DNA of 64,000 nucleotides from Branchiostoma lanceolatum (lineage: Eukaryota; Chordata; Leptocardii; Amphioxiformes; Branchiostomatidae): the NCBI RefSeq assembly GCF_035083965.1, contig NC_089737.1:16469529-16533528 (forward strand), given 5' to 3'. The position numbers and the translations under genes were made by a program. Below, one piece after another: positions 79 to 25,036 of the stretch. Each line of letters begins with the position of its first letter. Within the stretch, counting starts at the first letter, position 1. The notes under the pieces are model-generated. The model was not told where the DNA came from. It searched no databases and saw only the letters and a program-made list of their open reading frames with translations.

Positions 79-3000
79 TCAAAAATGATTTATCCAAGGC
101 TTTTGCACCCCAGAAGCTTTCCTTGCCCCAGAAGGCCCCCGTGCCCCAGAAGCCCCCCGTGCCCCAGAAGCCCCCCGTGCCCCAGAAGCCCCCCGTGCCC
201 CAGAAGCCCCCCGTGCCCCAGAAGCCCCCCCTACCCCAGAAGCCCCCCGTGCCCCAGAAGCCCCCCGTGCCCCAGAAGCCCCCTGTACCCCAGAAGCCCC
301 CTGTGCCCCAGAAGCCCCCTGTGCCCCAGAAGCCCCCTGTACCCCAGAAGCCCCCTGTGCCCCAGAAGCCCCCTGTACCCCAGAAACTGGCTCTACCCCA
401 GAAGCCCCCCGTACCCCAGAAGCCCCCTGTGCCCCAGAAGCCCCCTGTGCCCCAGAAGCCCCCTGTACCCCAGAAGCCCCCCGTGCCCCAGAAGCCCCCT
501 GTTCCCCAGAAACTGGCTCTACCCCAGAAGCCCCCTGTGCCTCAGAAGCCCCCCATGCCCCAGAAGCCCCCCGTGCCCCAGAAGCCCCCTGTGCCCCAGA
601 AGCCCTCTGTTCCCCAGAAGCCCCCTGTGCCTCAGAAGCCCCCCGTGCCCCAGAAGCCCCCTGTTCCCCAGAAACTGGCTCTACCCCAGAAGCCCCCTGT
701 GCCCCAGAAGCCCCCCGTACCCCAGAAGCCCCCTGTGCCCCAGAAGCCCCCTGTGCCCCAGAAGCCCCCTGTACCCCAGAAGCCCCCCGTGCCCCAGAAG
801 CCCCCTGTACCCCAGAAGCCCCCCGTGCCCCAGAAGCCCCCTGTTCCCCAGAAACTGGCTCTACCCCAGAAGCCCCCTGTGCCCCAGAAGCCCCCCGTGC
901 CCCAGAAGCCCCCTGTTCCCCAGAAACTGGCTCTACCCCAGAAGCCCCCTGTGCCCCAGAAGCCCCCTGTGCCTCAGAAGCCCCCGGTGCCCCAGAAGCC
1001 CCCTGTGCCTCAGAAGCCCCCCATGCCCCAGAAGCCCCCTGTGCCCCAGAAGCCCCCTGTGCCTCAGAAGCCCCCGGTGCCCCAGAAGCCCCCGGTGCCC
1101 CAGAAGCCCCCCGTGCCCCAGAAGCCCCCTGTACCCCAGAAGCCCCCCGTGCCCCAGAAGCCCCCTGTTCCCCAGAAACTGGCTCTACCCCAGAAGCCCC
1201 CTGTGCCCCAGAAGCCCCCTGTACCCCAAAAGCCCCCTGTACCCCAGAAGCCCCCTGTACCCCAGAAGCCCCCCGTACCCCAGAAGCCCCCCGTACCCCA
1301 GAAGCCCCCCGTACCCCAGAAGCCCCCCGTACCCCAGAAGCCCCCGGTGCCCCAGAAGCCCCCCGTGCCCCAGAAGCCCCCCGTGCCCCAGAAGCCCCCC
1401 GTGCCCCAGAAGCCCCCCGTGCCCCAGAAGCCCCCCGTGCCCCAGAAGCCCCCTGTACCCCAGAAGCCCCCCGTGCCCCAGAAGCCCCCTGTTCCCCAGA
1501 AACTGGCTCTACCCCAGAAGCCCCCCGTGCCCCAGAAGCCCCCCGTGCCCCAGAAGCCCCCCGTGCCCCAGAAGCCCCATGTACCCCAGAAGCCCCCCGT
1601 GCCCCAGAAGCCCCCTGTTCCCCAGAAACTGGCTCTACCCCAGAAGCCCCCTGTGCCCCAGAAGCCCCCTGTACCCCAAAAGCCCCCTGTACCCCAGAAG
1701 CCCCCCGTACCCCAGAAGCCCCCCGTACCCCAGAAGCCCCCCGTACCCCAGAAGCCTCCCGTACCCCAGAAGCCCCCGGTGCCCCAGAAGCCCCCCGTGC
1801 CCCAGAAGCCCCCCGTGCCCCAGAAGCCCCCCGTGCCCCAGAAGCCCCCCGTGCCCCAGAAGCCCCCGGTGCCCCAGAAGCCCCCCGTGCCCCAGAAGCC
1901 CCCTGTGCCCCAGAAGCCCCCTGTGATGTTTGCAGCGACATCCCTGCTATCCTGTCCCTGCAGTTTTCTGCTGTGGGACGCTTTGCTGTGTTCCTCCTCA
2001 GACAGTCGTTGATGAGCTTCTGCCACTCAGGGAAAGGGGGCGCTCTTCCATTCCAAGATGGCAGCGGAAGCTCTTTGCCAACATTGAGCGGCACAGACTT
2101 GTCAAATAGTGTCTTGTAATCCGGATCATTCTGCAAAAAGATCAACAAGTTAAATCAACTTACCAAAAAGGAATGGAAGACAGTTAACTATGGTCAATCA
2201 TATCTCCATTGGAAATTATCAGATCATTGTTTCATTGAAAAATTTGCTTTATGATGATACATTACCATACTAAGTTATGATCATACCTTGGTAAGACAAA
2301 CACCAGGGCTGACTACATGTATGATAGTGGGTTACAAAAAAATAGTGCCAGGTACAATGTATATGAGTTTACACAATGAAATCAGTCATGATGCTGATTG
2401 CACAAACTTAATGATACACAAAGCTTGTCATTTTTGTGACCCACTCACAAATAGTCCCAGCGTTCATCTCACAATTCCATGATCATAACTGTGTTTAGAA
2501 TAGCTACCTAGTCATTGTATTTTACAGCCTCCGGAACACTGAAAGTTCCATTCAGATACAGTTATGTATTTGGAACATTAAAGACATTAAAGCAACACAC
2601 CAGTACAAATCTACAAAGCCCTTAGAACAACAAACTACCACCCTACATGCGCCAGATGTTTGTGTACTGCAGAGACCAAAGTACACGGACAACCAGACAA
2701 AGCACAAGCAGTCAGCTGGTTGTCCCCAAACCCAAGCGAGAGATCTTCAGAAGATCGGTAGCCTACTGTGGACCAAATGTCTGGAACAGCCTACCGCCAG
2801 ACACACGTACGGCTCCGAATCTGACTTCCTTTAAGAGACTCTTGAAGTAACGGAAATGAACAAAACAAACGGACACGGACCATGAACCAGCTTGAGCCCT
2901 ACTATATGTTATATGTTGTAGCAATTGTATATTGTTGTACCATAAATATGTAATGATATATGTTGATAAAGTTATTAGGACTCAAATGACTGTGTATCTC

Positions 3001-6000
3001 TGTTATATTGTATCTGACCCTCACCCCTTCCCTCATGACCTCAATGAAAAGCGGCATGCGTGCCGATTTGAGCTTATCATGAATTAACAAAGGTTCAAAC
3101 AAACAAACAAACATGCTGCAGATGATTTTGCTAGTCATAAGGCCTTTTGCTGTTCTATAGTTGAATTTATCAATGGTAAACCCAAAGATGGAAAAGTACA
3201 TACCGGTGCACGTGAGTATATGGTCCGTCCGTACCACATCTCCAGCAGGATGACACCCATGCTGTACATGTCTGCACTCCTGTCGTACTCCTTTTGTGCC
3301 AACACCTCCGGTGCTGTGTAGAATGGTGTCCCTTCATTTGTCCTTGCATAGGCCTTTTCTGACTTTGAGCTGCCCAGATCTGCGAGTTTGACCACTCCTT
3401 CTGATGACACCTGCATGAATCAATGCAATCAACTTCTACACTAAAAACTATTGAATCTCCTGTCTTTATAGAGGTAACTGATGATAGAAGTTGTGGCAAC
3501 ATCGTTCAATGAAGGAATCAGCACCATACAAATGGGTATGGGTCTAGGTAATTAATATGTACTTTGATGTCACTTATAATTAGACTCTACAATCTACATA
3601 CTATGTACTTGTAGAGTGTCATTATGTTATTGATAAGCTTTTAAGGGAAAGAGAACAAATTTGTCTAAATCCTTAATGTTTGGTGTTTTTCTTTGGCTGT
3701 GGACATTTCAATCTTGATAAACCTTTAAGTTAACAGATCTCACTGTGAGTGAGAAGAGGACTTACCAGAATGTTGCTGAGCTTGAGGTCCCGGTGCATAT
3801 ATCCAGCCTCATGGATGTGCTTGAGTCCCTCACACAGCTGAACTGCCAGGTTCTGGGTGTAGCTGAAGGCTGCTGCCTGCCTCTCTGGGGCATCACCCCA
3901 CCAGGCTGGGCTGTTTTCTCTGGGAAGTAGAATTGCAATCAGAAATGATTTTTAATCAGTACAATCATGTACTTTGAATTACTCCGTGAAGGAGTTTTGT
4001 AATCATTCTTGTCCATACGTTCACAAGATCAGATTTGTCTAAAATTTAGCATGTCAGTATCTAAATATAGTATCAAACACCTTAGCCACACCCCAAACAC
4101 CATAACTATTTTACGGACGATTGCGTCCTATGGACTCTTGTTTAGGTATATCCATAAGTAAGACAAATTGCACTGCTCAAGTCTATTATTGTCAAGGAAT
4201 GGCTTAACATCTTCAATCTTCTGTGATGGCACTTGATGCAAATTACTGAGGTGGCAAAGAAAAAGACTACCATGACCATGTAATACCTTTTCTCAAACAT
4301 CTCTGCATCCAGTGTTTTGGGGCAGTACTCCATCACCAAGCCCAGGCATTTTTTATCATCGGTTTCACCTCGGTATGTCCCAAAGTACTTCACGACATGT
4401 CGCCCCTTCAGCTTCCTGAAATATATAACATTGTGTATATATTGTACATGTATGTGTCAGAATCTTCAAAACTGCATCTTCCCATTGTCATGTTCAACAT
4501 TAATTTTATGAATCAAAGTTGAACTGTAATTGCCAACACAAAAATTGCACTTACCCAAATTTTTAACTCATCGACTCCATTCTTTGTCAAAGAATGAGCA
4601 AACACTTACTTCTGTGACGTCATGTTATGCAGATAGAAAACGTTGTGACTCAGTGAGCAGTGGATCATAATTAAAGTGGACTACTCATTCCTTGACAAAG
4701 ACTGGAGTCCACCAGTTGAAAATTTGGGTAAGTCTAATTTTTGTCTTCAAGTTGGAATTCAACTTTGATTCAGAATGACTTCTACCAACACAGATGAACT
4801 TTCAAGTGAATAGTACTATTTCGTCCACCAATTTAATATTTGTAGGTGCTTTTTATATTCATCTTAAGTGAGTGAAGTAAGTCAGGCTATGACGACACGT
4901 TATTGTTAGTAGTATCCGGTATTTTGATTTGTTGGCAGACCAAATCACTCATAAAGCCCACCTCTATAGATCTGCAAACTTCTTTGTGTACAACTGACAA
5001 CCTAATATAACCAACATAATATGCAGGCCTATTGAGTTGACCAAAAAAGCCTCATCACATTATCTGCTTACTACATGTAAATAACAATGTGTGAAGACAC
5101 AAACTTCTCTCTTCCAGAGTATACATGTTTGATGTGTTACAATGCTCATGTACCTGAGGTTTTCTGCCTCTCTGACAAAGTTGGCCATGGTCTCATCAGC
5201 AGGAAGCTGACGTGGGATCTTCACAGCTGCCGTGAACGTGCCTCCATCTTTGCTGATTTGAACGAGATAAACACGCCCTTGCCCCCCTTCCCTGTGAAGA
5301 TGCCAGTTGGATGGTTTCCCGATGGTGAGGTCAAACTCGTGTTGCTTGATGTCAGTAGCGTAGAAGCCACAAAGTTCCTCAGCCAGCTGGGTAATTGTGT
5401 CCAATTTTGATTCATAGATTCTTATTTGATCTTCAGGTCTTGTCTCTGTTTCAGCTTTGATGAGTTGTTCATCAACTTGTCGCAGCTTAGGAATAGCATC
5501 TTTGCACGCTTGGAGATACTGGATAGGTCTTTTCAGGTGTTCTTTCACAGCAGACCTGATTGCTGGTTCCTTTGTCATTGCACCAAACACCTGGTCGGTA
5601 AAGCTCCTGATGTATTCCTTCCTGTTGTCAGGGCGTAATATCATCTTTGTCACCTTCTTTGCTAAATCTACCGTGACCCGGATTGTATTGCCAGGGGTCG
5701 AGTGAAAAGTCCTGACCAGCTGATAGGGGACAGAGAAAGCACTTGCAATTTTGAAGAATGCTTGTTTGAAAAACATACCGAGTCGCTTGAATTTGGATGG
5801 AAGGTGTGGAATGTCTAGCATTTCTTCAATCACTTTGTTGTGCTCTTCCAACAAGCTGCCAAACTGAGTCTGGAACTCTTCCCTGAGTCGGATGTCCGCA
5901 TCGAGGACGCACTGGTTGAAGGCTGAGTTTGGGTTACTCTTCAACTGTGACTCAACCTCATCAGCAAAGGCTGTTATCAACCTTTCTAAGCCACTCTCAC

Positions 6001-9000
6001 TGTAATCCACCTCTGGGAAGTCGTTCAGTATCTTCTGGCAGACACTGTCCTTGATAGCCTCATCCGTAAGGAATGCCTCAAGGTGGCCCGCTGCTTCCCT
6101 CCTTGCATCTTTCAACATTTGGTCAAGACTCTGTAAGACCTCCTTTGCATGCTTCTTGAAGATTTTAAGGCGCCTCTGGGCCTCTTCCCTTGCCATCTTC
6201 CTTTCTTTCTGTGTTCCATATGCAATATGCAGTTTCAGCCTGATGTATTGGGATGCCTTTAGTAGTAGTAGGTGCATATAACTGTTAAACAAAGACAATG
6301 TCATCACTCTAGACACAATCTTTCTATGAGATTAGCTTTCTGAATTTTTCTTAAACTTTGTTTTCAGAAATTATTTACCAGTGCTGTTTATCATTCGAAA
6401 TAAGGAATCTCAGAGATTGTTTCTTAATTGGAAGGAATACCAACGTGTCCATTAGAATCTGAGCTAGCAACAGTACAAAATGAACTTATTGTGCATGTAT
6501 TTTCTTCAAGTACATGTTCAGTTGAGGAAGTGCACATCGATCTTGAATGCCAAGGAATAAAACGGATCTGATAATTTAAGTCTTGGATACTTTCTTTTAT
6601 TCAAATGCAACTTCACATATTCATGATTGCTGAGCTTTCTTGTAATCCAGCACTATTTATCTCCATGAAAAAAGACTTTTTTATGGGGATATTGTTTTGC
6701 ATGGCATTTGCATGTGTGTTATCCTGTGTGTATGTTTGTGTCACCAGACGCTTAAAATCAGCATAACTGAAGAATGTGTGGATGGATTGTAATGATATTT
6801 GGTATGTGGGTAGGTGCTGGGAGGAGAAAGGTCAAGGTCAATTTTGGGCCCCCTGGTATGTGTCACTGGAACTACAATGGCGTATTTGTAAAAATCTTCC
6901 AAGGAGAATAACTGAAGAAAGGAACGACAGATTTTCATGTTATTTGGTACGCATGTGGGTTGGACAGAGATGTACAAACTAAAGTGCTAATTATGCAAAT
7001 TTGGACTGAATTTGCATAAGTAATGAGGAATATTTACTTCTCTATTGTGGGTATGGGCTTTGAGGTCACACCTGTTGAATCCATTGGTCTCTTATCTAGG
7101 ACGAGTATTCCCCAATTCCCAACAGCTGGTGGTTCTTCTGCCCAAAACCAAGTAGATGTGGGGTGGTAGCTCTACTAATGGTATTGCAGAAAGTTATATG
7201 TACCTTATGTTTCATAGTACGGATGTTATATTTGAGATGTAGGTACCTTTAGAACAGGTAAATACACCTGACAATAAATCATGCTAATGATGACCTAATT
7301 TGCATAATCCATGCATGAACTTGTATTTCCCTAACCATCAACAATGGTTCCGTATCTGACATGTGGAGCTCCTTAAAGTCCCTGTTAGGAAAGCCAAACT
7401 CAGGTGATATAACTGGCATGAAGGATACGGAGGGAAACACAAAAACATCACCACTGGACATCGCCCATGTACTCAACAAATACTTCGGAACAGTCGCTGA
7501 AACGCAAGCCCAAAACATCAACAAAGGGTTGTCACATTTCAGTCCTCTACAGTTTGTCAGACACTACCAGCCCCGCTTTACCCTCAAACCTGTGACAGTG
7601 GACTTTGTGACCCAAGAACTCTTAGCTCTGAAGTCTGACAAAGCCACTGGACTTGACCAGCTCAACAACAGACTTTTAAAGTCAGTCGCCCAAGAAATAG
7701 CACCTTCCCTGACAACCATCATAAACGCGTCGATACAGACAAGTGAATTCCCAGAGGATTGGAAAAAGGCAAGGCCGTCACCCATACACAAGGCTGGGGA
7801 CAGAGACGCCCCCAACAACTACAGACCCATCAGCATCCTGCCTGCCGTCTCCAAAATCCTTGAAAGAGCCGTACACACACAACTCTACGACTACATGACA
7901 AACAACAACATTCTATCAGAAGTTCAATCTGGCTTCAGACCAGGACACTCAACACAAACAGCTGTACACTTACTAACTGAGAGATGGTACAAGGCCATGA
8001 ACGACGGCGAACTGACGGGAGCAGTGTTCATTGACCTGTCAAAGGCATTCGACACACTGGATCACACCATCCTCCTCCAAAAGATGTCCAGATACGGCAT
8101 ACAGGGACCCGCTTTTGACTGGTTCCAATCATACCTCACTGGAAGGAAACACTGCACATCCATCAACAGAGCAACCTCTGAGTTTCACCAAGTAAAATAC
8201 GGAGTACCCCAGGGATCCATACTAGGACCCCTGCTATTCATCATCTACGTCAACGATATGCCAGAATGCCTTCAGTCTTGTGACATTTCAATGTATGCAG
8301 ATGATACTGTTATCTACTACAGCAACAAGGACTTCACCAACATTGAGAACGTACTTCAAAACGACCTTCAACGGCTGTCGCAATGGTTTGCTGCGAACTC
8401 GTTATCAATGAATGGTGGTAAATGTAAAAGTATGCTCATTGGTACAAACAGAAGACTGGCAAGCTGCAACATTCCAAACTTGGCTGTCAACGGCGTCAAC
8501 CTAAAAACATGCGACAAATACACATACCTTGGTGTAGTTATCGATCGTCAGCTCAAGTGGAAAGACCAGGCAAAGGCTGTACTAGGAAAACTGCGGCGGT
8601 CATTATTCATGATGAAACACTTAAACCCTTTCATCTCAACCTCAGCACTCTGTACCCTGTATAATGCCATCTTCCTACCACACATCACATACGCTTGCAC
8701 AGCATGGGAAGCTGCCCCCGACCAGGATCTACAGAAAATTCAAAGTATGCAGAATCGGGCTGGAAAACTGATACTAAAGGCCCCACACAGAACACCATCA
8801 ACCGAAGTGCTCTCTCGGCTGAGCTGGAAAGACATTAAAGAAACACTCCAATACTACAATGCCGTACAAACCTACAAAGCCCTAAACAACAAACTGCCAC
8901 CCTACATGCGCCAGATGTTTGTGTAATGTAGAGACCAGAGTACTCGTACAACCAGACAAAGCACAAGCAGTCAGCTGGTTGTCCCCAAACCCAAGCGAGA

Positions 9001-12000
9001 GGACCTCATTTGCATAATTTATGCATAAATGGGTATTTCTCTTACTGTAAAGGCTACGGATGTCATATTTGAGATGTAGGTACCATTAGGAAAGGTCAGA
9101 AAACCTGGCCATACATTATGCTAATGAGGGCATCATTTGCATAATTTATGCATATCCCTTGCTGTAAAGGCTACAGATTTCATATTTCAGATGTAGGTAA
9201 TTTAAGGAAAGGAGAACACACCTGGCCATAGATTATGCTAATGAGGGCCTCAATTGCATAATTTATGCATAATCTTGTATTTTCCTTACTGTAAGAGCTA
9301 CGGATGTCATATTTCAGATGTAGGTACCTATATAGGGAAGGTGAATACACTTGTCCATGAAATATGCTAAATGCAGACCTCATTTGCATAATTTAGGTAT
9401 AACCTTGTATTTCCCTTACTGTAAAGGCTACGGATTTCATATTTGAGATGTAGGTACCTTTAGGAAAGGTCAGAAAAATTGGCAATAAATTATACTAATG
9501 GAGGGTTTATGCATAATTTATGCATTTCCCTTACCATAAAAGCTACGGATGACATATTTCAGATGTAGGTACCTTTAGGAAAGGTGAACACACCTGACCA
9601 TACATTATGCTAATGCAGACCTCGTTTGCATAATTTATGCAGAAACTTCAGAATTCCCTTACACTACAGTAAATGCTAAGGACGTCATGTTTGAGGTGTA
9701 GGTAATGGGAGGGGAATATTAATGCATTTTCCCGAAAATGTTGCCTTTCTAGTTTCTATTACGTGGATACCCTCTGGCACATATAACAAAACAACCAGCG
9801 GCAACAACAAATAACTTGGGCAAATAAAACACATCATATATAAAAACAAATTTCATGGAGATTTTGGGTCTTCGGACTCTTGTTACATATTGTTGTACTC
9901 ACTGGTACTGCAGTTCCAGTTTGTGCTGAAGACTCTGTGGAAGGAGAGAATCTAACCCGTCCAACAGCCTGGTGAACTCCGGGGACATTCGTCCAGCAGG
10001 ACCCACAGCCTGGGAACAAATATAGTGTACAGTCACATAATTCATATACATTGCAAAATGAAATCATCATGCATCATCACACAATTTTTTATCAAGGTAA
10101 AATGGCTTTGAGTATGTTTGAACAATTGTCGTTTTGTTGGCAGGCCATATCAATGTGGAAATACCTAATGGGTTTGTGAATCCTCTCACCCCTCAGTGTT
10201 CATTCGATTTGTCACTTGTGAAAGGAAACATTAAATCACAATACATACGCCTGACATAAGTTAGCAGGCTTACAGGTTGAGATTTTTCTTGTATTATGAT
10301 TATGTGGCAGTTCTGATTGTGCTCGGTGTCCAACAGAAACTACCCTTAAGGCTTCTAAAAGGAACGATTGGCACGTTGATGCACACTACCTCAATCGGCA
10401 ATGTTCTTTTCTTAAAAATGTAGAATATGTGGTACCTTGTCGCATGAAAGGAAGAACACTTGATCATCTCGCAGCTCTGGAAAGTGGCCCCTCAGTATCT
10501 TTAAGTAGTCTTTCTTCACCACTTCTCTCTCGTCTTGCTTGACACTGTCCCACTTGTTGCAGACAAACATGGTGGATTCGAGATTGAGCTGAGAGACATC
10601 AAACAATTCTCCCCATTTATGTTTCTTGCACCACTTAAGCAGACGGGAAAGCTGAAGATAGAAAGGGACGTAGAATAGGGAGAAATACATGTTTAGTGGA
10701 TACAATCAAAACTACATCTTACATGTAAGTGTCAGTGAGAGGAAAACATTTACCCCATCTGTATGCTCATCAGACCCCTCCCCATCTCTGCCGGAGCTTG
10801 GGGCTGGTTTCAGCGGGATGGCACTGTTGATCATGTAGATGAACGCACAGGTTGATGGCACCACACCAGCCAAAACCTCATCCATCTTTTTTGTTGCCAT
10901 AATCCCAGGGCCATCAACAAGACACAGTCCACCCTGAAAAACATGCCATATATAGACATGACTATCAAAGAATGGTTTGTAAGAGATATTACTGAATCAT
11001 TGCAGTTTAGCATTAGCATTACTATCATGGATAAATGTCAAAATCGTTACAAGCAACCACATGTGCGGTGATTATGGGAAAGCAGTCAAATTTCAGGCTG
11101 AGGACGAAGCATGAGGCAGTTTATGAGGTAGTTATACCTATAGGAACGACTATGCCTTATCACACCCTAAAGATCGAATGGAATCGGGTCATTAATGTTA
11201 TTATCACATAGCCATTGTCCATATAGTAGTTAGTAGTACTGTGCAATATTTGATTTTGTGCCATACCTGGGCCGCAAAAACATTCACTACGGGTTTTCCG
11301 CATCATACGGTGTTCTATAGAATGTTTAGAATACATTTTGAGCGTGCCGGTTGCACTGCTGCCAATACTGGGTTTATATGAAGATTACAGACCCGCAAAA
11401 GCAGGTTCATATGGGAAAAGAAGGATCCGTAAATGGAGCCTTTTGATCGGTCAACGACATTTAGCAATATATCATGATAATGTAGTCTGAAACACATATC
11501 AATGAGTCAGTCAAATATGAAAAGAATCAACAATTATAATCCAACAAATTGGCAGGCAATAGATAAGACAAACCTGAAGGAATTCAAGCGGCCACTCTAT
11601 GACCACCTTTTCTACCTCCTCTGCATCCTGTCTTCCCCATCTGTTCACGTAGGATGCAAGTTTCTCTTTCTCTGCTTCGTCCGCATTCTGGAGATCAATC
11701 GTGTGCTGTCTCGTGCCAGTTGTGGGGTTGCTTCCTTTCAGGTGGACCGTTCCTTTCTTCACTTCACCATACCTGATGAAGCACAGGGTAGAGGTACTTG
11801 GGCGATGCAATACCGGCAAGATATCCTCCCCCAGCAGCAAGTTAAGGAGACTGCTCTTACCTGCAGAAGTCTCTCCTACATCATCAAGACATCATCAGTT
11901 CCTTGAAAAGGGGCTAAAAATCTTTTAAAAAATTCATGTAACACCATCTTTAGGCTGGCTTAATTTCCCTCTTTGTCGAACAGATCGTGTTACTTGGCTT

Positions 12001-15000
12001 GAAACTACAGGTACCAGTCTTTAAGTGACGTTTTAGACTTAAACCAAAACCCAAACAAGAAAACTGTGTTAGATTAACTCACATTAAGGCAGTGGCTGTT
12101 TTACTTACCTACAACTAAGATGGGACAGTCGTCATTTTGCAGAAAAGACCTCACATCTGCTAAGACCATCTGGAGATCTTCACCAAAGAAATCGTTCATC
12201 TTTTGTTTGTCATCATCACCCATGGAGCCCACAAACTTCGAGATTGACTCGCAGATTTGGGTTAGGTCTTCTCGCTTCTCTTTGTTTTCAGACAAAGCTT
12301 GCCGCAACATGTCTGTAATCTGCCCAGGACATTGAAACTTGTTAGTAAGGATAGCTGGTACATACAGAATGTATAAGTCTTAGAATTACTGCAGTTAAGA
12401 TACCAAGGGCTAATAAGTGATAAACTAGAAAGGCAACATGTTCGAGAAAATGTAGAATTCCCCCCCCCCCACCATTAACAAAGAAAGTATGAAATATGTC
12501 TCTTCACTATGCAAAGTAGGTCCTCATTAGCATAACACACATTACATTGTATTCACCCTCCCTAAAGCTACTTATGTCTTGAATAAGAAATCCCTATCAT
12601 TGACCACAAAAGACATTTGACATTTCAGCATTTATCATGCAAATGAGGTAATAATTAGCACATTGTATCTACAGCTGTATTCAACTTTCCTAAAGGTACC
12701 TACACCTCCAACGTAACATCCTTAGCATGTACCATGTGGGAAATATATGTTTCTACATAAATTATGCAAATGAGGTCATCATTAGCATAACACACGTTCT
12801 GTTGTATCCACCTTTCCTAAAGCTACTTACACCTCCAATATGACATGATCACATTCTGTGACATGTACCATAAGGGAAATGAGAAGTTTCTGTATACATA
12901 ATGCAAATGAGGTCCTCATTAGCATTATGCACCTTCAGGTATATTGACCTTTCCTACAGGTACTTAAACCTCCAATATGGTATCCATGCATTTACCATAA
13001 GAGAATTATGAAGTTGCAGCATTACCAGTTAGAGCTACCATGAGGGAAATATATTTTTGCTGACGCATTCTTCTCTTTCTTCTTCTTTTAAAAAAATATT
13101 CTTCTGTAAAAAAAAATAAGTAGCTGCCTATATCTACCTGACTTTTTGACAGAATAAGAACATGCCAGCAAAAACGAATATTTCCCCATACCTATACAGG
13201 ATATAGGGAGGGAAATATAATTATTCCTTGTGATATAACCAGTGCAGAGGGCCTGCATGCCCTTTTTCGTAAGGCGTAATCAGTCCTTTTTAGTCTTCGT
13301 AATCGTAAAAGTGCCCGCGCCAACTTTGACATCGTATAACTGCCAAACGACGTATGGTAGGACAACCAAACTTGGTGACTTTTCCTAAAATTTAGTTGGC
13401 AACAATATTATGATAAAAGTATAAGTTTATCATTTTTCGTGTTGCCATGGCAACGGGTTTCTGAAGAGGCATTTTATGCAAATTTCATTAATTTCAATTT
13501 AAACATAGTTGTTTCCAATGTTTTATTGCTCAATCACACTAGTTTCCTACATCTATAACATCATATGTGATTTGATGTAACTGTCATGATTTAATATTCA
13601 TAAATTATGCTAATTTGATGACGTCATCGCTCAAAATCCAAGATGGCGGACAAGATCAACATTTTTGGTATAAACAGGCTTTTTTGCCTTTAAATTCATC
13701 ACAACCTGGAATTTTCTTAGCCAGAAACATTTAGATTAATGTTTTTAATCTATTTTGATTGTTATTTGGGGTCATACATGGAAAAAATGTATTTCAAAAA
13801 ATTTCAAAATGGCCGATCCAAGATGGCGGATCCCAGGGGGTCGCTAACAACACATGACGTCATTCTTCGACTTCAATTTGACGTCAACTTAGTCACCACT
13901 GACGTCAAATGTCTTTGCATACCTTTAAATCAACAATACGCACTATTTTGTCTAATACTTTTAGATATTATGGGAATTCCCTAGTAAGCCAATAAAATCA
14001 CATTGATGACGTCACAATAACGTCAGATTGCGTCATAACGTCACCAAAATTACAGGAATTATAAAACTTCACGTGAACATCACTCCCTGCAAATTTGGTG
14101 ATGATAGAGCATACCGTTCGGAAGTCGAAAGAGCCCCCCCCCCCCCCCCCTCCAAGAAGTCTCAAAAAAGCCCGGTCTATATACTGATAGGGTTAAACTA
14201 AAACCTTATTTCTGTATTTTTCAATCATAGATACCATGAAACATAGCAAATTTGACCCTCAAAATGCAGGAAATAGCCTTTCAGAGGGTAAAGATAATGA
14301 TTTCAAAATTTTCCTCGGTATGCATGAGCTCGGATTGACCTCCGATTGTTACACCTCCGGGGGGGAAAATTTCTCGGGGGGGGGGGGGGGGGGGGGGGGA
14401 AATCTATCTGAAACCCTTGAATGTGTACTATGAGCACAAAATTTGTCCCTCAAAATGCAAGAAATAGTGTTTGACTTTGAGCAGGTAGAAATAAGTATTC
14501 CCCAGACCCACCTACAATCACCAGGCTTTCGGCAAAATATATGTTGGGAGGATGTCGCGCCCCATGAAACCCTTGCACATTTTTTTCCGCTAATGGATAT
14601 GTCATCAAACATGATTTAACGTAATTCGTAATAAGCTCTCAGAACTTAACGTAAATTGTAATAGGTGGCAAAAACTTTGCATAATTCGCAATCACTATCC
14701 CCCATGCAGGCCCTCAGTGCAGCCACCATTGTGTACAAGCTAGGGTGGTGTTTTGCACTGAACAGTGGTGAGTCATGTGGCTTACCCTAAACATGACTGT
14801 CAATCAATCAATCTGACAAAAAACAGGTCGAACGACATGGGATATGTTTATACACACACACCTGAAAACACACCTTTTAGGCATAGGTAATGAGAAAATA
14901 CTATCCTTTTATCCCAGGACGTTCTAAGGGACGTTAACTTTGTTATTTGGTTGGAGAAGACTTATGCACATGATGACCTGATCTGAATATCTAATAACAG

Positions 15001-15933
15001 ATGTCTATTATTAATAAACAGTAAATGATGGGATTGTCATAATTGTGAAATATGTTTCTTATACTGAGGTTACATCATCACAGTTATGCAAATAAGGTCA
15101 TACATTATTACATTCCTCTATTGCTGACCAGGATGACTAATATTCACAAACGTATTAAGGTCATACATTGTTCTTCAAAGAATCAAACTTGTTGTAAGTC
15201 AGCCCTGATGCCAGGAGCAAGCAAATATTTTGCCTCAAACCTTCAGGAATTTATTACTTGACCACAAAGAAGTCACATGTTATTTTTGGCTCTGGTTTAC
15301 CAGATTGGGCAAAGTCCGCTATTTCTGACTGTTTTCTATTCGGTCAGTTCAAGCAATGGCACATACCTTTCCAGGCTGTCTCTGTGTTGCAATGGACTCA
15401 CGAACCTTCTGCAAAGTCTGCAGTAACAGCGTTTTTGCATCTTCTTTCTCCTCGATGTCGTCAGTGTTGATGCTAAGTTCTTTTAGTGTGCTAGTCATCT
15501 TCCCAAACGTCATCCCTTTCACCTCTTCATCTGTTGGCAGAGCAACTGCGCCCTCCATGGCTAGATCGACAGGGAAAAATGAGTTTACCAACTGCTCATA
15601 CATGTATATGAAACATATGATATCAATGTGAATCATGTAAAAGTTCATATGTCTGTTTATTTGGATTCACCAGTGCTACTTGTACATGCAAAACAAGCGG
15701 GTACAGCCTTTACAAAAAAGTGTTAATATCTAAAGCTACATGACTATTGTACTGCCAAATATTCCCCTTCTTTAACCATTTACTTATTGCATGTGCTCTC
15801 ACCAACATGATTCAATAATAATAATCTAGAAAAGCTATATCAAATTCATATACCTCTGGATCTAGATTTGTGCAAGGACTTGATTTGTATGAGCAAGTCC
15901 AGCAAAACGATATCCACTGTTTTACTGAGGTAT
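79..15933 (-). CDS. Dynamin-like GTPase fused to a protein kinase with a collagen-like tail (N-terminus incomplete)
   Basis: Exons, 5' to 3' on the minus strand: 15933-15854, 15560-15367, 12319-12109, 11875-11574, 10933-10754, 10651-10436, 10009-9903, 6281-5154, 4415-4287, 3919-3766, 3410-3204, 2130-79. Every junction has AG/GT and the phases agree, giving about 1,652 residues to a TGA at 79. Order: short helical N-terminus (1-150), dynamin-type GTPase (about 155-430), helical region (430-755), Ser/Thr kinase (about 757-1030), Gly-X-Y repeat tail (about 1036-1642). No signal peptide or membrane segment is visible in the part seen, so a cytosolic protein is likely. By family knowledge the GTPase half may remodel membranes or self-assemble, and the kinase half should phosphorylate Ser/Thr; the substrate is unknown. 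The start codon lies upstream of 15933 and was not found. Domain calls are firm; the exact first exons and the overall role are not. Confidence 0.85.
111..1928 (-). repeat. Coding minisatellite: 101 tandem 18-bp units read as Gly-X-Y
   Basis: The tract is exactly periodic: units start at 111 and every 18 bases to 1911 with no indel. On the minus strand, in frame with the kinase, each unit gives two triplets such as [12 protein letters not shown] or GAS-GAP. Gly at every third residue is the collagen signature. Eight units (starting at 381, 507, 669, 849, 921, 1173, 1497 and 1623) carry a variant that replaces one Gly with Pro (GVE-PVS), each at a multiple of 18 from the others. The unit has no stop in any of the six frames, which is why long Pro-rich and Trp-rich open frames also appear here. 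Confidence 0.95.
2597..3112 (+). mobile_element. 3' end of a CR1/L2-like LINE, 5'-truncated
   Basis: The open part (2647-2850) encodes the C-terminal ORF2 signature [20 protein letters not shown] followed by SFKRLLK, typical of CR1/L2/Jockey-group LINEs. It is followed by a non-coding 3' tail ending in CAAA repeats near 3112. About 120 bases overlap the 3' part of the longer LINE at 7340-9002 at high identity, so this is a second copy of the same family. It sits antisense in the last intron of the GTPase-kinase gene. Confidence 0.8.
4535..4805. repeat. Imperfect inverted repeat related to the Penelope-like ends
   Basis: An arm around 4553-4600 (CCCAAATTTTTAACTC...) is complemented around 4684-4735 (CTTGACAAAGACTGGAGTCC...). 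The block ends in a segment (4790-4805, CTACCAACACAGATGA) that also follows the Penelope-like arm at 34938-34953. A second member lies at about 29735-29850. It sits in an intron of the GTPase-kinase gene. Confidence 0.55.
5154..6281 (-). other. Large helical linker exon entering the kinase N-lobe
   Basis: This single 1,128-nt exon encodes about 376 residues. The first 320 or so are rich in Lys, Glu, Ala and Leu with long helical stretches and no motif I recognise; by position they could be the stalk or bundle that follows the GTPase in dynamin-like proteins. The last 50 residues start the kinase: the Gly-rich loop [11 protein letters not shown] has Arg in place of the usual first Gly, and the ATP-anchoring Lys lies in AAVKIP. 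The exon ends in a split Arg codon that joins exon 4415-4287 in phase. Confidence 0.7.
6740..6990 (+). repeat. Dispersed repeat (GGATTGTAATGATATTTGG family)
   Basis: This stretch carries GGATTGTAATGATATTTGG, then TAGGTGCTGGGAGG, AGGTCAAGGTCAATTTTGGG and CCCCTGGTATGTG. The same ordered words recur at about 51340-51430, 51930-52075 and 58390-58545 on the plus strand and at about 50215-50345 on the minus strand. I see no coding capacity. It is an interspersed non-coding element of unknown class. Confidence 0.7.
7190..7335. repeat. Left part of an ATTTGCAT-rich satellite, cut by the LINE
   Basis: One unit of the satellite: GATGTAGGTACCTTTAG, then an aggtaaatacacctgac-like segment, then ATGCTAATGATGACC, ATTTGCATAAT and CATGCATGAACTTGTATTTCCCT. 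The same order recurs several times at 9000-9710 beyond the LINE, which shows that the LINE separates pieces of one array. Confidence 0.8.
7340..9002 (+). mobile_element. CR1/L2-like LINE fragment with reverse transcriptase
   Basis: The open frame 7361-8926 (521 residues) is a reverse transcriptase: [75 protein letters not shown] and the catalytic YADD ([10 protein letters not shown]). The N-terminal endonuclease is missing, so the copy is 5'-truncated. The frame stops early (TAA in place of a Tyr codon found in the related copy at 2597-3112). The element ends abruptly at about 9002, before its own 3' UTR, and runs straight into satellite. It lies antisense in the intron between exons 10009-9903 and 6281-5154. 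A dead copy. Confidence 0.9.
9003..9715. repeat. Tandem satellite, unit about 115-145 bp, with ATTTGCAT octamers
   Basis: Five to six decayed units run head to tail. Each has a TACGGATGTCATATTTGAGA-like segment, GATGTAGGTACC, an AGGAAAGGT-like segment, CATTATGCTAATG, then ATTTGCATAATTTATGCAT and a CTTGTATTTCCCTTAC-like segment. The octamer ATTTGCAT is present in nearly every unit. No coding potential. Confidence 0.85.
9903..12319 (-). other. GTPase domain exons (dynamin-like, G1-G4 motifs)
   Basis: Five exons carry the nucleotide-binding motifs in order. G1 (GETSAGKS) is split by the intron between 12109 and 11875, with one base of the Gly codon in the upstream exon. A Thr in the stretch PSTST soon after is a candidate switch I residue. 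G3 is DGPG at the start of the exon beginning at 10933, where classical dynamins have DLPG. G4 is NKWD in exon 10651-10436. The spacing and the G-E-T-S-A-G-K-S P-loop fit the dynamin/bacterial dynamin-like group better than Ras-like or IRG proteins. The following exon (10009-9903) leads into the helical region. Family membership is clear; the subfamily is not. Confidence 0.85.
12450..13060. repeat. Same octamer satellite in inverse orientation
   Basis: Four to five units with the reverse-complement words (ATGCAAATGAGGTC, CATTAGCAT, CCTTTCCTAAAGCTAC, TACACCTCCAATATGACATG) lie in the intron between exons 15560-15367 and 12319-12109. This array is inverted relative to 9003-9715, 3 kb away, so the two could pair in RNA or DNA. 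A short C run (12461-12471) precedes it. Confidence 0.8.
13250..14065. repeat. Non-coding repeat with clustered TGACGTCA words
   Basis: No gene is seen here. The stretch carries repeated AAGATGGCGG words and TGACGTCA or close variants near 13619, 13856, 13880, 13902, 14006, 14019 and 14035. It looks like the body of an old interspersed element in an intron of the GTPase-kinase gene. Confidence 0.5.
14137..14610. repeat. Old transposon piece with poly-C and poly-G runs
   Basis: A run of C near 14137-14150 and a run of G near 14379-14399 flank text (CCTCAAAATGCAGGAAATAG, then TTTCAGAGGG) that reappears in inverse form inside the hAT-like element at 38590-38660. I read it as a degraded relative of that element. 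The homopolymer runs are likely assembly-error and slippage sites. Confidence 0.5.
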
Positions 15934-22428: not shown

Positions 22429-25036
22429 TAAATAACCTGCAAACTGGAGAGGGTATTAGCTAGCAGGGCGTCTTCTGGACGTCTTACACTATAAAAACAA
22501 ACACAGCAGCGCCGCTATTCTGCCCCAGTTGATGCCGTCACGGAATAACCTGTCAATCAACCAAAGAATAAATAACCTGCAAAAGGTTCTTATAGCTAGA
22601 GGGTTATCCTTCATTCCTTTACTCAACTTTGTTTTGGCTCAGAAGTATGTATTTCAAATAAGAGATGGCTGCTAGACTTGAGGGTGTCTAACCTTGAATT
22701 GAGACCCAAAATAAACTGGGGTGTCCCCCACAAGAGATTTGAAAATAACCATAGCAACCACATGACCTCCTACAATGTCATTTGTCCACTGACCTTGGGC
22801 AGGTTTGACTGTATCAACAAAACACCAGATAAATTCGAAAGTAACCATGGCAACCACAAGGCATGCGACCTCCACTGACCTTCGAGCGACGCCAGCGAAG
22901 GCTTCATACGCCGTGGACGGGGTGACCCGCAGCGTCTTGATCATGGCCTTGAACTCTGACTCGTAGCGGTTCTCGATCTCGTCCCCGATCATCGCCAGCT
23001 TCCGCCCGACCTCGCTCTCGCGGCTGGGGGCAAGGTATCATGGGACATGTTGATGAAGGTTAGACATCAAGGTAGATACGCCAAAAATAGTTACTCAAGC
23101 AACTGGATAGAATTTAAAATTCTATCCAGTTGCTTGAGTAATTATTTTTGGTGCATGATGGGATGTTACACACGTAGACTAAGCTGCTTTTCAGCTTTGT
23201 GAAAATCGCTTCTTGTTAGTTATGGAACATTCTTATTGTAAGAAGTTTTTCCAATAAAACCATTGCATTGACGCAAAGTACAACACAAAAGACACAACAA
23301 ATTTGGTTTGTTTGATGAAGTATTGAAGTCGAATATCTGTAAAAATGTGTAATCATCACACCATTGAGGAATGAGTCCACTCACTTTATACTATACACCA
23401 TAACATAAACAGAGACAAAAATGCTGTCTGAATAACATAATGCTGTGAAACTTACGATACCACCAGAACCACAAGTTCGAATATAAATCTAACTGGTCTG
23501 ATTGCAGGGCTTGAAATAGTGGGTCATGTGCACCCAAAACTGGAGCTGTGCATCTGATTTTTGATTGCGGGTGCACCAGTGCAACTAGGTATTTTTGTAG
23601 GCTATATTTAGGTAAAGGTACAAGGTACTATTGTACACTTAGTATTCAGAATATTCTTGAAATAACCCTTTGTTGTACTTTATTTGATATATTACTTGTT
23701 TTGAAATTTGCGACAGATTGAAGTTCTTAAGAGAGGAAGTAATTCCTTTTGTTGACATTTAACTTTATTTTGTATGTGGTATCGGCTAATTTTTTTGGTT
23801 GGGTGCACCAGTGCACCTGTTTCTAAAAATGAATGTCAAGCCCTGGATTGGGACTTGATCTGTGGAATGCAGTGTTACTGTCCTTACCTGAGGGGGTTGA
23901 GGTCGGGCGTGAGTTCGGGCATGGAGGGCGTGCACTCCCCGACCTGGGATTCCCGCGCCTGCTCGCGCTGGTGTCTCTGGAACAGGAAGTCACGAACCAC
24001 GCTCTCTGTCTGCGCCGCTACCTAGCAACAAACAAAACAACAAACAACACTTCTGTAAATAATGCTACCTATAACAATAAAGAACACAGCATTCGCGAAT
24101 TCTTTGGAACGTTCTTCTGTGAATACTTCTGTAACAGTCTCCGTAAATTCCAGACACCTACATTTTCCTCTGTCTCTTGTGGCGAGCGCACAAGTGGCTC
24201 TTCCGCCTGCTGCTGCTCCTCCCCTGGAGAGGCTGCTGCCGGCTGTTGTGTCTGTTGCTCCTCCTCCCTCTGTGGTTCGGCCTCGTCTCCCCCCAGTCCC
24301 GGGATATCTGTCAGGATGTTTTGGCCTGAACCTATGGAAAAAATTTCACTGAATTTTAAACAATCTTTCTATGGTGGAATTGGTCTCTTCATAGGGCAAG
24401 CTGTGTACTTCTATTAAATGCACTCAATTCTTAGTAGTGGTCTTTGTGTATCACTAATAAGTTGATCATTTTTCTGACAACTTTCTGCCAATTAACATCT
24501 TTCTTTAAGTTTTTCTTTCCTTTAAAGATAATTTTCAAGTTTATGGGGCACACTCAAGACTTAGTTACTTAAATGAAGGTGATTAAAACATTCTAGCTTC
24601 ATTTTATCCATTCTATCATAACAGATCAAAAGATGAAACACATCCAATTGTTTTGTTCTTGGACGAGAGAAATACTGACCATATAAGGAAATACTGACCA
24701 TATAAGGAAATACTGACCATATAAGGAAATACTGACCATATAAGGAAATACTGATCATATAAGGAAATACTGACCATATAAGAAGTGCCCAGGCGCAGAT
24801 GACCCATGCCCGTTGCCATGGTGATCAATGTTGCCATGGTGATCCAGGTTGCCATGGTGATCTATGATGCCATGGTGGTCGGTGTTGCCGTGCGTGTAGC
24901 CGTGGTGGGCGGGGGCGTGGTGGTCGGCGGGCGTGGCCACGTGGTGACCGGGCGGCGGCACGATGTGGTGTCCGGTTACGGCGCCGGGCTCGCTCGCCGG
25001 GGGGTCCTTCTTCTCCTCGGACTGCACCTCAGACAT
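21648..25036 (-). CDS. BAK1: BAK/BAX-like BCL2-family apoptosis effector
   Basis: Six exons in phase: 25036-24775, 24325-24162, 24021-23888, 23023-22880, 22393-22213, 21758-21648; 331 residues. BAK-type proteins oligomerise in the outer mitochondrial membrane and release cytochrome c. Exon 3 carries a helix-1-like segment (VVRDFLFQRHQ), exon 4 the BH3 core LAMIGDEI (about 196-203), exon 5 the BH1 core DGINWGR (239-245) and BH2 WIAEHGGW (288-295), and exon 6 a hydrophobic tail anchor ending in basic residues (296-331). BH3 and BH1 resemble BAK more than BAX. The length is well above the roughly 200 residues usual for BAK because of a His/Gly-rich repeat (DHHGN units, from 15-bp DNA repeats) in exon 1 and a Gln/Glu-rich exon 2. 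ATG at 25036 opens the frame; a CAG 15 bases upstream suggests a 5' UTR intron. Confidence 0.93.
21940..22085 (-). pseudogene. Partial tandem copy of the 3' edge of BAK exon 5 and its intron
   Basis: Positions 22035-22081 match the last part of exon 5 with its donor (real copy 22207-22255), with several substitutions. The neighbouring intron text (CCCCTGAGTATCAAGTGG to the AGGGGTGTG word) is duplicated with it, at an offset of about 172 bases. The fragment has a donor but no exon start, so it should not be used as an exon. Confidence 0.85.
22501..22563 (-). pseudogene. Partial tandem copy of the 5' edge of BAK exon 5
   Basis: About 60 bases match the start of exon 5 with its acceptor (real copy about 22346-22404), with a single substitution in the exon part (GCGCCGCT for GCGCAGCT) and the same CGGAATAACCTGTCAATCAA junction. 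It stops inside the exon and has no donor. Confidence 0.85.
23081..23151. repeat. Near-perfect inverted repeat, 35-bp arms
   Basis: Arms 23081-23115 and 23117-23151 are complementary at 34 of 35 positions around a one-base centre. The arm contains ATCCAGTTGCTTGAGTAA. The left flank carries TTGATGAAGGTTAGACATC, a word also at 40393 and, inverted, at 47092. It lies in BAK intron 3. Confidence 0.85.
24669..24782 (-). repeat. Six-copy 19-bp repeat spanning the BAK exon 1 donor
   Basis: On the minus strand each unit reads TATATGGTCAGTATTTCCT. The exon 1 donor is the first one (GT at 24774-24773). GTCAGT recurs at 19-base steps; the second unit has ATCAGT and has lost the GT. See the finding for the effect on the reading frame. 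Confidence 0.9.

Follow-up and report, generated by a model that had tools for sequence, protein, structure and literature searches.

The 64,000-nucleotide stretch of Branchiostoma lanceolatum DNA analysed here (hereafter the window) raises the question of whether a dynamin-type GTPase and a protein kinase are joined in the product of a single animal gene, and of which known proteins such a product would resemble. The preferred reading is of one gene for a probably cytosolic enzyme, in which a GTPase of the BDLP/mitofusin type is followed by a trunk, probably helical, and by a kinase at the C-terminus, on the body plan of the kinase DSTYK, assembly on endolysosomal membranes is coupled to kinase activity, and the tail stems from a minisatellite. 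Taken as a whole, this reading is given about an even chance of being correct.

Eleven coding exons on the minus strand, running from 15558 to 79, join into an in-frame sequence of 1,625 amino acids whose stop codon ends at 79. The acceptors are AG in 11 of 11 cases and the donors GT in 10 of 10; all 11 exons are free of stops in the frame used (the last being counted only to 1926, before the repeat array), and both other frames contain stops in 8 of them. The G+C content per codon position is 0.54/0.37/0.55 in the coding sequence, whereas 10.6 kb of intron sequence give an even 0.38/0.38/0.39. Upstream on the same strand, a putative 5' non-coding exon 1 at 15854..15933 is a guess from splice consensus only, while exon 2 (15367..15558, residues 1-64) opens with a start codon in good context, and exon 3 (12109..12319, residues 65-134) would run up to where the first GTPase strand starts. 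The splice sites, the in-frame 1,625 residues and the domain matches bear out the coordinates and motifs given in the first-pass annotation, and its proposal that one frame holds both a dynamin-type GTPase and an active-looking kinase agrees with the Dynamin_N and Pkinase matches described below, in which the motifs are intact. A search for a paralogue in the window, by tblastn of residues 1-1015, returned the exons of the gene itself, besides two matches attributable to chance (E > 7); the window contained no tRNA, and no Rfam family reached its gathering score.

The GTPase occupies the next four exons, all on the minus strand: exon 4 (11574..11875, residues 135-235) encodes the G1 motif GETSAGKS at 135 and the conserved Thr162, exon 5 (10754..10933, residues 236-295) the G3 motif DGPG at 242, exon 6 (10436..10651, residues 296-367) the G4 motif NKWD at 327, and exon 7 (9903..10009, residues 368-402) the end of the GTPase half. 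The Pfam family Dynamin_N matches residues 131-272, over two splice junctions, with 71.4 bits (cut-off 27; E 1.2e-19), and this domain, with its G1, G3 and G4 motifs, is that of a dynamin-superfamily GTPase of the BDLP/mitofusin type. The closest PDB match of residues 1-720 is Nostoc BDLP (2j68; E 6.3e-18 over 77-275), a profile built from 33 bacterial dynamin-like proteins scores 103.6 bits over residues 118-276 (E 4.9e-34 in a one-sequence search), and HHalign extends the match of this profile over 118-369, reaching the start of exon 7, at a probability of 99.5. BDLP and its cyanobacterial relatives share the G1 and G3 motifs with the window protein, which differs from them in about 28 additional residues between G3 and G4 and in its kinase, for which no match turned up among the ORFs (150 aa or longer) of the loci searched; unlike BDLP, it also has no recognisable membrane paddle.

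The kinase is spread over the five remaining exons of the minus strand. Exon 8 (5154..6281, residues 403-778) encodes the trunk together with the kinase N-lobe, exon 9 (4287..4415) continues the kinase, exon 10 (3766..3919) contributes HRDLK, exon 11 (3204..3410) contributes DLG and APE, and exon 12 (79..2130) completes the domain before running into a 613-residue Gly-Ala-Ser/Arg tail and the stop. Pfam Pkinase matches residues 734-999 across four splice junctions with 156.2 bits (cut-off 31.7). The catalytic domain is complete by the standard of eukaryotic-type protein kinases (Lys757, Glu774, HRD Asp866, Asn871, DLG Asp884 and APE at 906), and the kinase looks active as judged from its residues. 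A bacterial-defence origin of the kinase, considered on account of a match to the PADLOC model mad6 (188.3 bits), was rejected: a provisional DSTYK sequence scores 187.6 on the same model, which is therefore a general kinase profile.

Between the two enzymes lies a trunk of about 320 residues, which has no Pfam match above threshold and, when 87 collected loci were searched with phmmer, no match to any ORF of 150 aa or more. The description of this part as a long helical region is plausible from its content of Gly and Pro (19 of 317 residues). Outside the GTPase, the bacterial dynamin profile scores 10.5 bits over residues 10-109 and 3.0 bits over residues 319-525, and comparison of the trunk with 33 bacterial C-terminal halves produced z values of up to 4.1, the second highest being 3.3, where controls reached no more than 3.0; the trunk cannot be reliably aligned with those of BDLP and the cyanobacterial relatives. 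Hydropathy windows over residues 1-1012 revealed no transmembrane-like stretch, and the most hydrophobic window in the trunk (570-588) is weak, with a mean hydropathy of 0.99. A membrane insertion segment is absent from many dynamins; the window protein may assemble on membranes.

The first-pass annotation knew of no named family in which the parts stand in this order. That there is none is doubtful because DSTYK has the same plan, with weak GTPase-like similarity at the right place (by a provisional sequence; profile comparisons are contrary), and LRRK1/2 are GTPase-kinases of another class. In the literature, DSTYK (Dusty kinase), which some authors name RIPK5 and others dispute as such (PMC9573974, PMC10492769), has a C-terminal kinase after a long N-terminal region (PMC11507063, PMC8636471), the N-terminal half being given as of unknown function (PMC11507063); the window protein shares this layout. 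All DSTYK alignments used a single sequence, its letters provisional. It has a P-loop-like stretch at the same place, from which the GKS residues are missing, and its C-terminal kinase carries a DLG motif. Over 55 aa, the P-loop stretch of the window protein is 40% identical to this sequence (E 2.4e-4 to 8.3e-5 in a one-sequence comparison), with a local z of 6.6 that 0 of 500 shuffles equalled. The whole non-kinase part gives a BLOSUM45 global z of 5.15 (2/500), with repeats at 4.2-4.9, where reversed DSTYK reached 1.4 and none of 23 unrelated ORFs exceeded 3.3, and a BLOSUM62 local z of 3.5 (4/500). Taken separately, the GTPase part reaches a BLOSUM45 global z of 2.3 (12/500), and the trunk a local z of 1.7, below the reversed control (2.6), and a global z of 2.9 (8/500), with repeats at 2.7-2.8 against a control maximum of 3.0.

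These comparisons bear on two accounts of the gene's ancestry. It is possible, at somewhat under an even chance, that the gene truly belongs with DSTYK in one family, the vertebrate protein having derived from a dynamin-like GTPase-kinase with loss of the P-loop residues, and the window gene representing the ancestral active form. The module order is identical, the similarity is centred on the P-loop, and the spacing from the P-loop to the kinase Lys is 622 residues, and 563 in the provisional DSTYK sequence. When 158 queries, consisting of the window protein and 157 bacterial ORFs matching the GTPase, the latter mostly related to one another, were aligned with residues 1-640 of the provisional DSTYK sequence, the best local match crossed residues 125-130 for 149 (BLOSUM45) or 146 (BLOSUM62) of them; the window protein ranked first (31.7 bits) or third, and the highest score among 233 other ORFs was 23.3 bits. 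Alignment of the provisional DSTYK sequence with the window protein (z 4.2-4.9) is also better than its alignment with all but one of the 33 bacterial relatives (32 at no more than 3.25); the remaining one, at z 4.5, does as well. Against kinship stand the single, provisional DSTYK sequence, the interrelatedness of the bacterial queries, and the kinase domains, which are not specifically close: the window kinase reaches 54.8 bits with provisional DSTYK and 80.2 bits with STK4, so that it is not nearer to DSTYK than to other kinases, and the best PDB kinases of provisional DSTYK (CTR1, BMX and PKC theta) differ from its own. A 522-residue piece of the provisional N-terminus found no PDB match at E up to 10 and, in Pfam, only one chance family (E 0.055), and HHalign gave the bacterial dynamin profile a probability of 2.2 against provisional DSTYK. 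The alternative, an independent fusion in this lineage of a dynamin-like GTPase with an ordinary kinase unrelated to DSTYK, is likewise credible without reaching even probability. It accords with the rank of the kinase, which is at the level of generic STE/NEK kinases, with the trunk similarity, which falls inside the control range, and with HHalign of the whole proteins, which detects the kinase alone; it leaves unexplained the P-loop and whole non-kinase similarities (z 6.6 and 4.2-5.2), which exceed both shuffles and unrelated controls. DSTYK also differs from the window protein in having no Gly-X-Y tail.

The integrity of the gene depends on the junction between its two halves, for the trunk and the start of the kinase share exon 8, so that the GTPase would be linked to the trunk by one splice, from exon 7 to exon 8, over intron 7 (6282..9902, minus strand). 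This 3.6-kb intron contains AT-rich tandem repeats and, on the plus strand at 7361..8926, a retrotransposon reverse transcriptase ORF (Pfam RVT_1, E 1.2e-40). The fusion would be an artefact of reading through the intron if a GTPase gene ended just after exon 7 and a separate kinase gene started at the ATG of exon 8. The length and retrotransposon content of the intron suit this account, as do the immediate stop that an unspliced exon 7 would meet after LELQYQ (an in-frame TGA in the donor region), the strong context of the exon 8 ATG at 6196 (A at -3, G at +4) and an AATAAA at 6601, between the GTPase and kinase halves. It is nevertheless unlikely: exon 7 ends in a GTGAGT donor, which the exon 8 acceptor matches in phase, the nearest AATAAA or ATTAAA downstream of exon 7 is 3.3 kb off, and the non-kinase part, which spans the junction, aligns with provisional DSTYK above controls by one scoring. 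A GTPase that stopped at residue 402 would moreover be left without the trunk that dynamin-type proteins need. The single gene of the preferred reading also ends in a tail that had been described as collagen-like. Its Gly-X-Y pattern is real, with 186 of 204 triplets starting with Gly and a Pfam Collagen match (E 1.1e-76, 9 stretches), features it shares with collagen-like repeat proteins, but imperfect, and the tail is an expanded minisatellite rather than a working collagen: TRF finds an 18-bp unit in 101 copies at 108..1925 on the minus strand, with 88% matches and 0% indels. That a genuine collagen tail should make the protein function as a trimer is highly improbable, even though the frame is held over all the copies and is the sole open one among the three on its strand. 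The opposite strand of the array is open in all three frames too. Trimerisation by the tail is unlikely because Pro makes up only 16 of its 613 residues (2.6%) and the Gly-X-Y run has 16 breaks inside it, the longest stretch being 35 triplets; of the 186 Gly triplets, just 7 have Pro at X or Y, where a collagen has long, uninterrupted and proline-rich Gly-X-Y. The top hydropathy windows of residues 1-1012, in contrast to what collagen-like repeat proteins would present, include neither a hydrophobic N-terminus nor a membrane segment, and a route to prolyl hydroxylation is therefore not evident.

The earlier suggestion that the protein is a sensor-transducer, its kinase coupled to assembly, is plausible as a conditional mechanism. 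GTP loading would pair the GTPase domains, and the trunks would then assemble on, or tether, an endolysosomal membrane; crowding there would allow the attached kinases to meet, activate one another in trans and so report engagement of the membrane, and GTP hydrolysis would reset the assembly. The likely mechanism, by inference, is thus a GTP-driven assembly on endolysosomal membrane through which kinases come together, of the kind that has been proposed for LRRK2. LRRK1 and LRRK2 (Roco) also combine a GTPase and a kinase within one protein. Their Roc GTPase is Ras-like and is accompanied by COR, LRR, ANK and WD40 parts. Pfam finds no Roc, COR, LRR, ANK or WD40 in residues 1-1012 of the window protein, and no Roc-COR tandem before the kinase in residues 1-720 at E up to 1. 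LRRK2 has an endolysosomal role and tubulates membranes in a guanine-nucleotide-dependent manner (PMC10614619), a remodelling which would have its likeness in the window protein; overexpressed DSTYK causes late endosomes and lysosomes to fuse and enlarge (PMC6981171), and kinase-dead DSTYK keeps its localisation there (PMC11933320).

Four papers (PMC11507063, PMC8636471, PMC11933320, PMC10492769) link DSTYK to spastic paraplegia (SPG23; also PMC6981171), to malformation of the urinary tract and, at late endosomes, to STING signalling, and describe its N-terminal half as noncatalytic and little conserved, or as of unknown function; one of them reports binding of beta-catenin by residues 1-500. 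An animal protein with the DSTYK layout and an intact dynamin-type GTPase provides a testable idea of the nature of this half, which may also account for the fusion and enlargement of lysosomes by DSTYK; the gene layout hints that there may be a worn-down dynamin-like motor inside vertebrate DSTYK. We propose, tentatively, that the two proteins form one animal dynamin-kinase family, in which the N-terminal half of DSTYK would be a decayed dynamin-like GTPase that binds and joins endolysosomal membranes, and the window gene would keep the ancestral working GTPase and couple membrane assembly to kinase signalling, as a dynamin-class counterpart of LRRK2. It would add, beside LRRK2, a second evolutionary wiring of GTPase to kinase on membranes. 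Among open-licence papers, a search of titles found none tying DSTYK to dynamin, and the paper examined on Dynamin_N with Pkinase was irrelevant.

Relatives were also sought in sequence collections. In genome contigs, the GTPase alone as query gave 41 stretches and no relatives, while an alignment as query gave at least 467 relatives among 588 candidates; 77 of the best 80, which were kept, are labelled cyanobacterial, the query alignment itself already having 3 cyanobacterial rows among its 4 bacterial ones. In the 87 loci collected, no ORF of 150 aa or more matched the kinase. Viral contigs yielded 3 pattern stretches with residues 1-1012 and 2 with the kinase, none of them relatives, and with the alignment query 3 relatives out of 65 candidates, all of which were rejected as MnmE tRNA GTPases from the ORF reading. 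With the non-kinase part as query, ten plasmid records came up at E up to 1e-5, and each of these matches lies within residues 73-355. The kinase is matched by 82 plasmid records at E up to 1e-10 (27-33% identity among the 25 matches listed) and by 40 phage records at E up to 1e-5, which were taken for ordinary kinases.

The minus strand from 15558 to 79 contains eleven coding exons (exons 2-12), which join in a single frame to give a predicted product of 1,625 residues with its stop at 79. Of the twelve joined exons proposed in the first-pass annotation, these eleven stand, with AG acceptors in 11 of 11 cases and GT donors in 10 of 10, while the remaining putative non-coding exon (15933-15854, minus strand) is a guess from consensus only. 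The used frame is open in all eleven coding exons (the last being counted only up to its tandem array), stops are present in both alternative frames for eight of the eleven, and the G+C content by codon position displays a coding pattern in the coding sequence which is absent from the introns. The Pfam matches to Dynamin_N (residues 131-272, E 1.2e-19) and Pkinase (residues 734-999, E 1.4e-45) span two and four splice junctions respectively, and they therefore provide independent support for those junctions.

Exon 8 (6281-5154) holds, in one unbroken frame, both the trunk and the beginning of the kinase, and the link between these two is therefore a genomic fact; the link between the GTPase and the trunk depends on the splice from exon 7 (10009-9903) to exon 8, over 3.6 kb that carry a reverse transcriptase. 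The alternative is a pair of genes, a GTPase gene ending after exon 7 and a separate kinase gene beginning in exon 8, which would make use of the TGA into which exon 7 immediately runs if it is not spliced, of an AATAAA at 6601 and of a strong-context ATG in exon 8, at 6196. Exons 7 and 8 are among those joined in frame with complete splice sites, and a single gene for GTPase, trunk and kinase is the very probable reading. The reverse transcriptase ORF in intron 7 (7361-8926, plus strand) matches the entire RVT_1 profile (E 1.2e-40), and a piece of an element similar to this retrotransposon, as judged by eye, lies in intron 11 near 2600-2800.

The presence of a GTPase domain was confirmed, as the Dynamin_N match is accompanied by intact motifs G1 (GETSAGKS), G3 (DGPG) and G4 (NKWD). 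Among solved structures it is most similar to the bacterial dynamin-like protein (BDLP) of Nostoc (E 6.3e-18). A profile built from 33 bacterial proteins scores 103.6 bits over residues 118-276, a match which HHalign carries on to residue 369; taken together, these similarities assign the GTPase, at the level of sequence, to the BDLP/mitofusin class, from which it differs in having about 28 additional residues in the G3-G4 interval. When genomes were scanned with a small alignment, at least 467 of 588 candidate stretches proved to be relatives, and 77 of the best 80 of these are cyanobacterial by title; the scan was tilted that way by the query alignment, in which three of the four bacterial rows were cyanobacterial. 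The six 19-residue windows of highest hydrophobicity in residues 1-1012 all fall at 252-276, inside the GTPase, with means of at most 1.54, so that no transmembrane-like segment is found in residues 1-1012 by this measure. The long helical region described earlier is retained in part: the trunk is low in glycine and proline (19 of 317 residues) and is probably helical, and no Pfam family exceeds the cut-off in residues 404-720. The union of a GTPase and a kinase in a single protein is of a kind already known (LRRK); an intact-motif dynamin-class GTPase fused to a kinase was not found among the open-licence papers listed.

The vertebrate Dusty kinase (DSTYK) has the same module order as the window protein, which qualifies the earlier claim that no named family has this order. 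The human DSTYK sequence used here is provisional, its length of 929 and its Lys681, Asp777 and Met296 matching papers; the comparisons with this one sequence are a lead, backed by those checks, and count for less than a database test. Around the P-loop, 55 residues of the window protein align with the provisional DSTYK sequence at 40% (one-sequence search, E between 2.4e-4 and 8.3e-5), and the local score lies at z 6.6 relative to shuffles, with 0 of 500 as high. In BLOSUM45 global alignment the entire non-kinase parts reach z 5.15 (2 of 500 shuffles; repeats 4.2-4.9), against z 1.4 for reversed DSTYK and no more than 3.3 for any of 23 unrelated ORFs. Of 33 bacterial dynamin-like proteins aligned with DSTYK, 32 stay at or below 3.25, and the other one, at z 4.5, equals the window protein. 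The best local match lies across DSTYK residues 125-130 for 149 of 158 queries with BLOSUM45 and 146 of 158 with BLOSUM62, these queries being the window protein, which ranks first or third, and 157 bacterial GTPase-matching ORFs, mutually related and non-independent. The local match of the window protein gives 31.7 bits, compared to 23.3 for the best of 233 other ORFs.

Contrary alignments must be set against these. The GTPase part alone gives z 2.3 (BLOSUM45 global, 12 of 500 shuffles), the entire non-kinase part z 3.5 in BLOSUM62 local alignment (4 of 500), and the trunk z 1.7 by the latter method, below the reversed control (2.6), or z 2.7-2.9 globally, where the control maximum is 3.0. 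HHalign of the complete window protein against the provisional DSTYK matches the kinase only and nothing N-terminal, the bacterial profile attains with DSTYK an HHalign probability of 2.2 and 5.7 bits in hmmsearch, and a PDB search (E up to 10) with 522 residues of the provisional N-terminus finds no match; the single Pfam family matched by those residues was taken as chance. The DSTYK kinase is no closer to the window kinase than STK4 is (54.8 bits for the provisional DSTYK, 80 bits for STK4), and because of this and the contrary alignments the window protein was not filed as DSTYK. The DSTYK plan is common to both proteins, which may also share ancestry; that DSTYK conceals a dynamin module is a tentative idea, somewhat more doubtful than not.

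The kinase retains the full set of catalytic residues, which together with the Pkinase match upholds its description as apparently active. Its closest solved relatives, STK4/STK3, NEK7 and STK24, score 70.8-80.2 bits (21 distinct sequences, E up to 1e-18), a level at which the subfamily cannot be told. A bacterial-defence origin of the kinase, to which a score of 188 bits with the PADLOC model mad6 pointed, was rejected because that score is non-specific, the provisional DSTYK reaching 187.6.

Dynamin-type GTPases assemble on membranes through GTPase pairing and trunk contacts, as is established for the superfamily. By analogy with DSTYK and the Roco GTPase-kinase LRRK2, on which we base the inference at each step, the GTPase and trunk would bring the window protein to an endolysosomal membrane and cluster it there, an event that the attached kinase would then report. 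In studies of DSTYK, overexpression causes late endosomes and lysosomes to fuse and enlarge (PMC6981171), and the kinase-dead protein is still located at late endosomes and lysosomes (PMC11933320), so that in DSTYK location is separable from kinase activity. One paper calls the N-terminal half of DSTYK unconserved, with an unknown function (PMC11507063), and another calls it noncatalytic and reports binding to beta-catenin through residues 1-500 (PMC8636471). Tubulation of membranes by LRRK2 is reported to need guanine nucleotide and not ATP, and its authors propose signalling at sites of membrane remodelling (PMC10614619).

The tail is encoded by an 18-bp tandem array (101 copies, 88% matches, 0% indels) that reads Gly-Ala-Ser/Gly-Ala-Arg. 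Of the three minus-strand frames only the one in use is open, which suggests that the array is translated; all three frames are open on the plus strand too, where a proline-rich ORF of 648 aa covers the minisatellite at 66-2012, open frames being doubtful evidence here. The Gly-X-Y character noted earlier holds, with 186 of 204 triplets Gly-first and a match to the Pfam Collagen model (E 1.1e-76), but a collagen helix does not follow from it: proline makes up 16 of 613 residues and occurs in 7 of the 186 Gly triplets, the run has 16 internal breaks and its longest stretch is 35 triplets. This chemistry and the absence of a hydrophobic N-terminus argue against such a helix, and a disordered tail, variable in length, appears more likely.

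Elsewhere in the window, several long plus-strand ORFs rich in Ser, Pro and Gln at 48059-55041 may belong, as exons, to a single large gene; Pfam scans of five of them gave no match with E up to 0.01. An exon-like ORF at 22672-23037 (minus strand) matches the Bcl-2 family in Pfam (E 7.3e-6; 26.9 bits, below the 31.4 cut-off) and contains, by reading, a stretch resembling the BH3 motif. Large tandem-repeat arrays with units of 82, 184 and 246 bp occupy 42780-45756.
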